Source of the DNA: Deltaproteobacteria bacterium GWA2_54_12
GTDB lineage: Bacteria; Desulfobacterota; GWC2-55-46
Assembly (NCBI GenBank): GCA_001795535.1
Contig: MGPK01000032.1
Location: forward strand, 42,874 to 77,053
DNA length: 34,180 nucleotides
Direction of reading: 5' to 3'
The position numbers and the translations under genes are program-made. Below, piece after piece: positions 19,852 through 23,313 of this stretch. How positions within the stretch are numbered: position 1 is the stretch's first letter; every line of letters begins with the position of its first letter. Under the pieces are notes generated by a model. The model was not told the origin of the DNA, ran no database searches, and saw nothing but the letters and a program-made list of their open reading frames with translations.

Positions 19852-20223
19852 ATGAAACTAATCCTCCTGGCATCGGCCGGTGCAATCGGCACGCTCGCAA
19901 GGTATCTTCTCGGAGGCCTCGTCCAGAGGCTTTACGGCGGCTCCTTTCCGTGGGGCACTTTCGCGGTCAACATGACCGGGACATTCCTTTTCGGGCTGGT
20001 CTGGTCTCTGGCCGAAGACAGGCTCATAATCAGCGGAGAGGCGAGGGTCGTCATACTCGTCGGCTTCATGGGCGCGTTCACGACATTCTCGAGTTTGATG
20101 TTCGAGACCGGCGAGCTTATGCGCGACTCCCAGTGGGCCCTTGCCTTCGGCAATCTGGCTTTGCAGAATATTACGGGTATACTTTTTCTTTTCATAGGTT
20201 TTGCAATCGGCAGACTGATATAA
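19852..20223 (+). CDS. crcB: Fluoride channel Fluc/CrcB
   Basis: A 123-residue membrane protein with four hydrophobic segments, the standard size for a dual-topology Fluc channel that expels fluoride. The family marks are present: GTFAVNMTGTFLFG with N40 in the second segment, and GFMGAFTTFSSLMFE, whose Phe and Thr/Ser residues line the pore. An AAGG lies just before the ATG. A DUF190 gene follows 63 bp downstream on the same strand, a pairing known in other genomes. No second crcB copy is nearby, consistent with a homodimer. Confidence 0.95.
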   Translation: MKLILLASAGAIGTLARYLLGGLVQRLYGGSFPWGTFAVNMTGTFLFGLVWSLAEDRLIISGEARVVILVGFMGAFTTFSSLMFETGELMRDSQWALAFGNLALQNITGILFLFIGFAIGRLI

Positions 20224-20286: not shown

Positions 20287-20628
20287 ATGAAACTCCCGGA
20301 AGAATCAGATCTCCTCAGAATATTCGTCGGCGAAAGCGACAGGTTCGAGGGCCGCCCCCTTTACCAGGCCGTTGTAGAAGAGGCGCGCGGCAGGGGAATG
20401 GCAGGGGCGACCGTGCTCCGTGGCCTCATGGGTTTTGGGGCCACCAGCCGCCTGCATACCGTGAAGGTGCTGAGGATATCCGAAGACCTTCCGATGGTCG
20501 TGGAGATAGTGGACCGGCCTGAGCGCATTGAGGCCTTTCTCCCTGAGCTTGAGCGCATGGTCCCCGAAGGGCTCATAACAATCGAGAAAGTAAGGGTTAT
20601 CGCTTACAGGGGCAAAAGGGAGGGTTGA
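20287..20628 (+). CDS. DUF190 (PII-like) protein
   Basis: A 113-residue soluble protein of the DUF190 family, whose fold resembles PII signal proteins. Typical features are LLRIFVGESDRFEGRPLYQAVVEEARGRG near the start, then GATVLRGLMGFG, and VVEIVDRPERIEAFLPEL in the second half. AGGAGG lies 7 bases before the ATG. DUF190 genes often sit next to crcB, so a role in fluoride response or in tuning the channel is plausible; its ligand is not known to me. It is probably co-transcribed with crcB. Confidence 0.9.
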   Translation: MKLPEESDLLRIFVGESDRFEGRPLYQAVVEEARGRGMAGATVLRGLMGFGATSRLHTVKVLRISEDLPMVVEIVDRPERIEAFLPELERMVPEGLITIEKVRVIAYRGKREG

Positions 20629-20712
20629 GCGGCCCTTCAGCCGCAGAGCCAACCTTCTATCCAACCAAGTATTTACGAAGTATTTATTTTTTTAACTCTG
20701 CCTTGTTTTTTC

Positions 20713-20742
20713 TTGACACCGCACAACATGTTGTGGTTTACT
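20713..20742 (+). promoter_or_regulatory. Probable nrdJ promoter
   Basis: A consensus -35 TTGACA at 20713-20718 and a TTTACT -10 at 20737-20742 are separated by 18 bp, giving a start near 20749 and a leader of about 200 bases. The spacer is occupied by a perfect palindrome (see next entry). The rest of 20629-20949 is AT-rich leader with a 7-bp hairpin, ATATAGC/GCTATAT, at 20908-20929, just upstream of the ribosome site. Confidence 0.55.
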
Positions 20743-20767
20743 TACCCTCACAACACAATATAGACCA
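20722..20767 (+). promoter_or_regulatory. nrdJ: Pair of NrdR-like operator boxes upstream of nrdJ
   Basis: Box 1 is the perfect 14-bp palindrome CACAACATGTTGTG (20722-20735). Box 2 is ACACAATATAGACC (about 20753-20766), close to the known NrdR consensus acaCwATATwGtgt. Their centres are 31 bp apart, three helical turns, which is the usual arrangement for paired NrdR boxes. Box 1 lies between the -35 and -10 and box 2 lies just after the start site, both positions suited to repression. That NrdR acts here is inference from this pattern and from the downstream ribonucleotide reductase gene. Confidence 0.65.
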
Positions 20768-20949
20768 TTTCCTAATCAAATCAACAGGTTAGTTCCACAC
20801 GCCTTTTGCGCTTTTCTTTTTTTTAAAACGGGCTGGTGGGCGAGGTTTTTATTTGGGGCCGAAACTGTATTTATTAGATATTAAAAGCCGTATTTATTGA
20901 AATTATTATATAGCGCACTAAAGCTATATTAGAAGTAAAGGGGGGACGA

Positions 20950-23313
20950 ATGGACCAAGACATGTACAGCCGTTTACTTAAGGCGGAGCCAGCCAAAAAG
21001 ACACCTCAAAAGGCGCACGCCGAGACCATGCCCGCGATAGAGATAGCCGAGAACGGGCGCAGGGTTCTGGAAAAGCGTTACCTCAAGAGAGACGCCGAGG
21101 GAAAGACCCTCGAAACTATAGAAGAGATGTTCTGGCGCGTTGCCGCCAATATCGCCGAGGGCGACAGGAAGTTTGACAAGAACGCCGATGTCGAGGCTGT
21201 CGCCAGAGAGTTCTACGCGATGATGGCCGCCCTCGAGTTCATGCCCAACTCGCCGACACTCATGAACGCTGGTAGGGAATTGCAGCAGCTTTCAGCCTGT
21301 TTCGTCCTTCCGGTCGAGGACTCGATGGAGTCCATCTTCGAGGCCGTAAAGCACACCGCCCTCATCCACAAGTCTGGCGGCGGCACGGGTTTTTCGTTCT
21401 CCAGGCTCCGTCCTTCGGGAGATTCGGTTGGCTCCACCTCCGGCATATCCTCCGGCCCCATCTCCTTCATGACTGTATTTGACAGCGCGACCGAAGCGAT
21501 AAAGCAGGGCGGCACCAGAAGGGGCGCCAACATGGGCATCCTCCGCGTAGACCACCCTGATATCATGAACTTCATCACATGCAAGGAAGACAACACCAAG
21601 CTCAACAACTTCAATGTCTCGGTGAATATTACCGAAGACTTCATGAAGGCCGTCGAAGGGAACGAAGAGTACGACATAATAAGCCCCAGGGACAAAAATG
21701 TCGTCGGCACAAGGAACGCCAGGGAGGTCTTCGACAAGATAGTGAAGATGGCCTGGAGGAACGGCGAGCCCGGCATAATCTTCATAGACAAGATGAACGA
21801 GAACAACCCGACGCCCAATGTCGGCCAGATAGAGTCGACCAACCCGTGCGGCGAGCAGCCGCTCCTTCCGTACGAGTCCTGCAACCTGGGCTCCATCAAC
21901 CTGAGCCGCATGCTCACGAAGACCGGCGAAGGGTTTGAGATAGACTGGGCCAGGCTTGAGTCGACCGTCGGTAAGGCTGTCCATTTCCTCGACAATGTCA
22001 TCGAGATGAACAAGTACCCCATCGAGCAGATAGAAAAAGTTACGAAGTCGAACAGGAAGATAGGCCTCGGCGTCATGGGTTTCGCCGATATGCTTATTCG
22101 TCTCGGCATACCCTACAACTCTGACGAAGCGGTCGCGCTTGCCGAAGAGCTGATGTCCTTCATACAGAGAAAAGGCAGGGAGGCCACGAGGGAGCTGGCT
22201 GCCGACAGGGGAGGCTTCCCCAACTTCAAGGGCTCCATCTACGACGGCAATGGCGAGCCGGTCAGGAACGCTACCGTCACGACTATCGCCCCGACCGGGA
22301 CCATCTCCATCATCTCGGGCTGCTCTTCCGGCATCGAGCCTCTTTTCGCGCTGGCCTTCACCAGAAATGTCATGGAAGGCACCGAGCTTATCGAGGCCAA
22401 CCCGATATTCGAGGAGTACGCCAGGGAAAGGGGCTTTGACAGCCCGGAGATAATGAAGGAAGTAGCGAAAAAGGGCAGCCTGCACGATGTTGAGGGCATA
22501 CCGGATGACATAAGCCGGGTGTTCGTCACGGCGCACGACATATCCCCGGAGTGGCACATAAAGATGCAGGCAGCCTTCCAGAAGTACACGGACAACGCCG
22601 TGAGCAAGACCGTGAACTTCCCGCAGGAAGCCACCATCGAGGATGTCGCCTCGGTCTACATACTCGCGTACAAGCTCGGCTGCAAGGGCGTGACCGTCTA
22701 CAGGGACGGCTCAAGGGACGCGCAGGTGCTGAACATCGGCAGCGAAAAGGCAAAGGCGGCGGTAGAAGCCGTGCCAGCTCCGGTTGAGCACCCGGCTGTG
22801 CACAAGCCCAGGGAGCGGGGCGAAGTCGCTTTCGGCATCACCCGTAAGATGAAGACCGGCTGCGGCAACCTCTACATAACCATCAACGAAGACGAAGAGG
22901 GCCGCCCGTGCGAGATATTCACCCAGATAGGCAAGGCCGGCGGCTGCGTTTCCTCGCAGTGCGAGGCCATGGGCAGGATGACATCCCTTGCTCTGAGGAG
23001 CGGCGTTGAGGCCCAGGAGATAGTGACCCAGATGCGCGGCATAAGCTGCCATCTTCCGGTCGGCTTCGGCGCGGGTAAGGTCTCGTCCTGCGCGGACGCG
23101 ATGGCCCAGGCAATGGACTGGTATCTCGGGTACAAGCTGCAGACAGGCGGGGCCGCCATGACCGACATCAGCGCCCTTAGTAGCCTGCCCAAGCAATACA
23201 CCATGAGCCATGAGGTCTTGAAGCGCGGGGCCTGCCCTGACTGCGGCAGCGCTGTAGAGCACGCGGACGGGTGTCTCGTGTGCAGGGGCTGCGGTTACAG
23301 CGAGTGCGGCTAA
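20950..23313 (+). CDS. nrdJ: Vitamin B12-dependent (class II) ribonucleotide reductase
   Basis: A 787-residue cytoplasmic enzyme that reduces ribonucleotides to deoxyribonucleotides using adenosylcobalamin, so it needs no oxygen. The first active-site Cys is C117 (LSACFVLP); the radical-site loop NPCGEQ is at 298-303 with N298, C300 and E302. GGGTGFSFSRLRP and the TVYRDGSR stretch are also conserved. A TSCPD domain follows (about 636-700, TGCGNLYITINEDEEG). The C-terminus has a Cys-rich tail from CPDC at 762-765 to Cys786, expected to shuttle electrons and bind metal. I see no ATP-cone at the N-terminus. AAAGGGGGG precedes the ATG. Confidence 0.97.
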   Translation: MDQDMYSRLLKAEPAKKTPQKAHAETMPAIEIAENGRRVLEKRYLKRDAEGKTLETIEEMFWRVAANIAEGDRKFDKNADVEAVAREFYAMMAALEFMPNSPTLMNAGRELQQLSACFVLPVEDSMESIFEAVKHTALIHKSGGGTGFSFSRLRPSGDSVGSTSGISSGPISFMTVFDSATEAIKQGGTRRGANMGILRVDHPDIMNFITCKEDNTKLNNFNVSVNITEDFMKAVEGNEEYDIISPRDKNVVGTRNAREVFDKIVKMAWRNGEPGIIFIDKMNENNPTPNVGQIESTNPCGEQPLLPYESCNLGSINLSRMLTKTGEGFEIDWARLESTVGKAVHFLDNVIEMNKYPIEQIEKVTKSNRKIGLGVMGFADMLIRLGIPYNSDEAVALAEELMSFIQRKGREATRELAADRGGFPNFKGSIYDGNGEPVRNATVTTIAPTGTISIISGCSSGIEPLFALAFTRNVMEGTELIEANPIFEEYARERGFDSPEIMKEVAKKGSLHDVEGIPDDISRVFVTAHDISPEWHIKMQAAFQKYTDNAVSKTVNFPQEATIEDVASVYILAYKLGCKGVTVYRDGSRDAQVLNIGSEKAKAAVEAVPAPVEHPAVHKPRERGEVAFGITRKMKTGCGNLYITINEDEEGRPCEIFTQIGKAGGCVSSQCEAMGRMTSLALRSGVEAQEIVTQMRGISCHLPVGFGAGKVSSCADAMAQAMDWYLGYKLQTGGAAMTDISALSSLPKQYTMSHEVLKRGACPDCGSAVEHADGCLVCRGCGYSECG

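Follow-up and report, generated by a model that had tools for sequence, protein, structure and literature searches.

The window (the whole stretch of 34,180 nucleotides analyzed here) carries nrdJ together with the promoter features collected in Table 1. The nrdJ product scored 1234.9 bits against NF006417 in a profile search (cut-off 961) and contains the domains PF02867, PF00317, and PF12637 (TSCPD). No terminator-like hairpin was found in 20629-20960. Rfam returned no match across the window at the gathering threshold and none in 20600-21000 even at E values of up to 1, and an RNA element between the promoter and nrdJ was rejected on this basis. A short inverted repeat, ATATAGC ... GCTATAT, lies at 20908-20929, immediately 5′ of the ribosome-binding region of nrdJ; its right arm alone is kept in the two same-genus relatives compared.

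Table 1. Genes and promoter features at the nrdJ locus, in window coordinates.
Feature	Position	Strand	Description
crcB-like gene	19852-20223	+	5′ of nrdJ; TIGR00494 72.4 bits, under the cut-off of 80.45
DUF190 gene	20287-20628	+	5′ of nrdJ, same strand
-35 hexamer, TTGACA	20713-20718	+	Direct reading; also before box 1 in relatives
NrdR box 1, GCACAACATGTTGTGG	20721-20736	+	16-mer occupying the promoter spacer
Palindrome, CACAACATGTTGTG	20722-20735	+	14 bp, inside box 1
Extended -10, TGG + TTTACT	20734-20742	+	TGG doubles as the right arm of box 1
-10 hexamer, TTTACT	20737-20742	+	Direct reading
NrdR box 2, ACACAATATAGACCAT	20753-20768	+	Good left half; poor right half, with C in place of G at position 13
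IHF-like site, AATCAACAGGTTA	20779-20791	+	WATCARnnnnTTR; roughly +30 to +42 relative to the inferred transcription start
Inferred IHF contact region	20764-20796	+	Published 33-mer consensus (PMC10380432) placed on the core; placement inferred
nrdJ	20950-23313	+	Adenosylcobalamin-dependent (class II) ribonucleotide reductase, 787 amino acids

The initial annotation placed a palindrome exactly between TTGACA and the -10 of the nrdJ promoter, and direct reading bears this out. The spacer between the two hexamers is 18 bp long, and the final bases of box 1 (TGG, 20734-20736) stand at the position of an extended -10 motif. A scan for consensus promoters omitted the TTGACA/TTTACT promoter because the scan calls for an A that is missing from its -10; the same scan listed a weak alternative promoter at 20881-20909, nearer nrdJ.

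We compared this arrangement with 24 promoters from 30 same-family genomes, 13 of 18 genomes from the rest of the order, 11 of 15 from other parts of the class, and 55 named loci at greater distance (103 rows). Six family genomes were left out of the family count: G021 was cut at a contig edge, G015 was found at a contig edge, and G003, G020, G024, and G028 have partial or short copies. A pair of NrdR boxes stands 5′ of nrdJ in all 24 family promoters, in 11 of the 13 from the order, in all 11 from the class, and, by the same rule, in 25 of the 55 more distant loci. Of the 32 rows without a pair, two are from the order (G038 and G043) and 30 are distant loci; these 30 include Geobacter loci where the boxes are weaker, as well as loci for which scarcely any or no upstream sequence is at hand.

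Against the NrdR consensus ACACWATATATWGTGT, box 1 and box 2 each score 12 of 16. Among the 24 family promoters, 11 of the 16 columns of box 1 are invariant, C4 and G13 included; the right arm, TTGTGG, is invariant throughout, and the left arm is variable. By our own mapping, which relies on their 9-bp spacing, C4 and G13 would be the published NrdR contact pairs. The centre of box 1 in this genome, ACATGT, had been put forward as a possible lineage variant of the motif. We find that centres are mixed within the family (ATATGT in 10 promoters, ACATGT in seven, and ATATAT in seven) and even within the genus (ACATGT in two of three promoters and ATATGT in one). ACATGT is therefore ordinary variation with no lineage signature, and the idea of a lineage-specific centre was discarded.

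The pattern CACNANATNTNGTG has a single exact match in the 2.08-Mb genome, at the nrdJ promoter. With one mismatch allowed, it matched in nine places versus 18 for a reversed control, and its near matches therefore carry no meaning. The sequence ACNAYATRTTGTGGT gave 23 matches in 22 of the 30 neighbourhood genomes (reversed control, 0), of which 20 lie at nrdJ promoters. The other three comprise one in G015 (at the contig edge, with the same layout), one in G012, 5′ of an ATPase gene, and one more. At L180 (G012:C5:73000-77000), an NrdR-type box pair follows TTGACA upstream of an AAA/SMC-like ATPase gene, whose product has weak matches to the defence-system proteins LmuB, Ppl, and AriA. The gene may serve defence and be controlled by dNTPs, or its promoter may have been borrowed.

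The initial annotation also described a second NrdR-like box, centred 31 bp further on at three helical turns. The box is present, but its centre is 32 bp away, which leaves 16 bp between the two 16-mers and still amounts to about three helical turns. Short spacings of 15 to 16 bp are common between NrdR boxes (as described in PMC12051234). Overlooked until now were the unusual right half of box 2 and the IHF-like element beyond it. Box 2 keeps C4. At its position 13, which we map as the second contact base, 19 of the 24 family promoters have C, four have G, and one has T. Such positions matter in Streptomyces coelicolor: NrdR binding was 50-fold weaker when both contact pairs were inverted in one box and close to 60-fold weaker when one pair was inverted in each box, according to PMC9110341.

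The genome has the matching regulator. Looking for nrdR, and for conservation of the palindrome upstream of nrdJ in relatives, had been proposed as checks on NrdR-type control. A stop-free nrdR is present at G000:C8:1480-1920 (TIGR00244, 209.6 bits; cut-off 124.65), and the box pair is conserved as described above. The nrdR product (Zn-ribbon plus ATP-cone) can be aligned with solved NrdR structures. It retains D15, R17, and RRRR at 26-29, all named as DNA contacts in PMC9110341, and has K in place of R12. Given the nrdR gene, the kept contact residues, the 16-bp spacing, the overlap with the polymerase site, and the conservation of the box pair, we consider the proposed NrdR control of nrdJ very probable and of a known kind. 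Overlap of an NrdR box with the polymerase site is itself an established mode (PMC9110341 and PMC12176259). It is very improbable that the 14-bp palindrome is some other symmetric operator. The deviating right half of box 2 and the ACATGT centre of box 1 would fit that idea, but the pair spacing, the contact C and G of box 1, the ribonucleotide reductase (RNR) target, and nrdR in the genome all speak against it, as does the same layout in relatives that have ATATAT centres. An FNR site was rejected separately, because the left half of the FNR palindrome is absent, by eye, from the upstream sequences inspected.

Much of this layout has precedents. According to PMC9110341, PMC12176259, and PMC12051234, S. 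coelicolor nrdRJ and Escherichia coli nrdHIEF, nrdDG, and nrdAB likewise have two boxes about three helical turns apart, at a 15-16 bp spacing and with conserved G-C contact pairs, that overlap the site of RNA polymerase or the transcription start. Pseudomonas aeruginosa nrdJ also has a class II promoter with two NrdR boxes and with box 1 over the -10, where reporter tests with a mutated box 2 support the function of that box (PMC4409342). An RNR promoter that has a box at its -10 and is under NrdR control is already known from that paper. A non-canonical second box is not unique either, as box 2 of E. coli nrdAB has a central AG (PMC12176259). Unlike in S. coelicolor and E. coli, however, box 2 of the nrdJ promoter studied here keeps mainly its left half and has an IHF-like site adjoining it.

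This third element agrees with the IHF core consensus WATCARnnnnTTR, as given for E. coli in PMC8407004 and PMC10380432, at all nine specified positions. Counting matches at offsets of 56-61 from the start of box 1, we found the exact consensus in 15 of the 24 family promoters and at most one mismatch in 21. Dinucleotide shuffling of the 100 bp that follow box 2, repeated 300 times, gave corresponding means of 0.02 and 0.23 and maxima of 1 and 2. Reduced to one row per genus, the counts were eight of 13 (exact) and 12 of 13 (at most one mismatch). On the opposite strand, at the same offsets, at least eight of the nine positions matched in three of the 24 family rows. Flanking DNA (52% G+C, both strands) held 0 exact and 33 one-mismatch occurrences in 28,542 positions. 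On the upstream flank of the element, T stands in columns +47 and +48 (counted from box 1) of the 24 family promoters with 1.5 bits apiece, and columns +70 to +119 carry at most 0.6 bits each. The promoter of G015, at its contig edge and outside the 24, carries AATCAAAGACTTC. The distance from box 1 to the start of nrdJ varies from about 131 to 590 bp in 21 family loci, but the third element keeps a set distance from box 1 and therefore appears tied to the promoter, not to the gene start. We think that it is quite probably an IHF site.

Outside the family, the element becomes less regular. Exact matches at offsets 56-61 were found in two of 12 promoters from the rest of the order and in none of 11 from the rest of the class, and matches with at most one mismatch in eight of 12 and six of 11, respectively; G032 is absent from the order count (n = 12) because it has no anchor. 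In the rest of the class, T changes to A in the core, giving AAACAA with TT four bases later. One form of IHF site observed in E. coli is WAWCAACnnnTT (PMC8407004), which fits the A of the class-type core but not the G that mostly stands next to it. By a wider criterion (offsets 54-64, at least eight of nine positions), the site is missing from G010, G012, and G019 in the family, of which G012 and G019 have a one-base insertion in the core; from G032, G037, and G039 in the order; and from G048, G050, G053, G055, and G058 in the class. Nor was it found, at the same offsets, in the 25 more distant named loci that have the box pair, the scope to which absence in distant loci applies. On a tree of 72 NrdJ proteins (G060 and G061 were included only there, and G062, which has the pair, was left out), the site needs at least eight changes and is present only in rows of the window's own class.

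Among the genes that could supply IHF, three in the window's own genome belong to the DNABII family. One of them (G000:C68) reached 111.1 bits in the IHF alpha search and so missed the curated cut-off of 120.25, which was attained in seven of 97 genomes and not in 90; the best single-subunit matches of its product among solved structures are IHF alpha chains. We found no IHF beta in this genome, which is 79.6% complete (the best score, 70.9 bits, belongs to the alpha gene), and none above 100 bits in the same-genus genome G002, listed as 100% complete. IHF-beta-like proteins above 100 bits occur in 51 of the 59 genomes searched, 22 of them above the cut-off, and are present in the same-genus genomes G001 and G003. 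The IHF beta of G029 retains EIRGFGSF, matching the solved IHF chain 2iif. All five class members named above as lacking the site have IHF-beta genes too. The presence of IHF genes does not tell promoters that have the site from those that lack it and is therefore only permissive. An HU/IHF-family gene lies immediately 5′ of nrdR (L001:1031-1318).

The IHF-like site adjoins box 2. If the IHF 33-mer is placed on the core, it would span about 20764-20796, share the final 5 bp of box 2, and so cover box 2 position 13. In raw counts over the 71 of 103 rows that have the box pair, G stands at position 13 in six of 35 rows with the site and in 26 of 36 rows without it. On the tree, only five independent pairs on starred branches remain for this association, with a median P of 1 (range, 0.25 to 1). 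The link in the raw counts is thus gone after correction for kinship, and we dropped the correlation between the IHF site and loss of G13. A connection between the IHF-like site and the degraded box 2 is offered here as a suggestion.

Open-access full-text searches for IHF together with NrdR or RNR gave no title or abstract opening that places IHF at an NrdR operator; subscription papers lie mostly outside this coverage, and priority is accordingly uncertain. In PMC9110341, PMC12176259, and PMC12051234, NrdR is described as acting through its own two boxes, and the main text of each lacks the term IHF; so does PMC4409342, in which respect P. aeruginosa nrdJ differs from the promoter described here. 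Mentions of nrd in the text of PMC8407004 and PMC8682772 concern DnaA at nrdAB, and IHF appears in PMC5738425 within a reference to another promoter. Unlike the E. coli IHF sites that lie by DnaA boxes, the site predicted here adjoins the operator of a nucleotide-sensing repressor.

Other reductase genes were also examined for NrdR boxes. The same genome also encodes a class III reductase, nrdD (L200, G000:C63; 470.1 bits). Upstream of it, in the region of about 691-737 and 750-928 of L200, lie a candidate NrdR-like box pair next to a TTGACA, spaced by about 31 bp, and a cobalamin riboswitch (115.7 bits); nrdD looks like a backup enzyme for B12-off conditions beside the B12-dependent NrdJ. The gene was found in one of 30 genomes searched, the window's own, and transfer or contamination is therefore possible. 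Relatives have a second, tail-less NrdJ-like protein of about 580 amino acids, 56-60% identical within the family (for example, G002:C10:1022-2725 and G008:C1:2207284-2209002). In G002, G005, G008, G017, G023, and G026, its gene shares a contig with nrdJ and follows it at a distance of about 28-34 kb; in G012, the two are 118 kb apart. The three copies checked keep cysteines 117, 300, and 311, which we take to be the active-site cysteines, and lack the TSCPD/zinc tail. This paralogue was not found in the window's own genome, where the nrdJ contig ends 11 kb past nrdJ. We rejected these paralogues as NrdR targets, as 19 of 20 upstream regions have no promoter-anchored box (best box scores, 8-11) and the match at L147 is not box-like.

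The sequence itself, its position and conservation, the nrdR gene, and IHF subunit genes in the group were observed directly and suggest the following model, in which binding, bending, and the direction of any effect are predictions. A sigma-70-type promoter would drive nrdJ, with box 1 forming its spacer and extended -10 and box 2 positioned just beyond the inferred start of transcription. By analogy with other bacteria, a rise in dATP would load the NrdR tetramer with ATP and dATP and bring it onto both boxes, kinking the DNA and excluding RNA polymerase; kinks of nearly 90 degrees at each box are described in PMC9110341. An IHF heterodimer on the WATCARnnnnTTR site would bend the DNA beside, and partly over, box 2. 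In E. coli, IHF bends DNA sharply, and the A/T elements surrounding its core matter (PMC8407004 and PMC10380432). At this promoter IHF would most likely serve as architecture: pre-bent DNA would offset the weak right half of box 2, and repression would need NrdR plus IHF. That NrdR control and an IHF site coexist at this promoter, leaving aside the direction of any effect, we judge to be somewhat probable. Should IHF bind there, we lean slightly toward its helping rather than opposing NrdR.

The opposite effect would follow if IHF, by covering the right half of box 2, blocked closure of the NrdR tetramer and raised nrdJ expression, which would also tie dNTP supply to IHF occupancy. The 5-bp overlap of the placed 33-mer (PMC10380432) with box 2, position 13 included, is compatible with such competition, and PMC8407004 reports a change in E. 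coli IHF occupancy at about the time of replication initiation; however, box 1 is strong and conserved, and we regard opposition as unlikely. It is similarly doubtful that this is an ordinary NrdR promoter whose third element is the site of another regulator or an early RNA element of the 5′ untranslated region. In favour of this alternative, the consensus is short and is degenerate in the rest of the class, the element lies within the region inferred to be transcribed, IHF genes occur without the site, and IHF beta was not found in the window's genome. Against it stand the exact consensus in 15 of 24 promoters versus none in the flanking DNA, a spacing that is constant to box 1 and not to the gene, and the lack of any Rfam match in 20600-21000, even at relaxed E values.

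Returning to the model in which IHF assists NrdR, its widest form is that, across the clade carrying the IHF-like site (records mostly labelled Deltaproteobacteria), NrdR has ceded half of its second operator to IHF, giving a joint NrdR-IHF switch on a B12-dependent reductase that couples dNTP supply to IHF occupancy. We put this forward tentatively, as a possibility that falls short of an even chance. The promoters with and without the site form a natural set in which the function of box 2 can be probed. If a conserved DNA-bending site does stand by a degraded box 2, a nucleoid protein would share the operator of NrdR, and such a shared operator would offer a straightforward and testable means for chromosome architecture to adjust dNTP supply.
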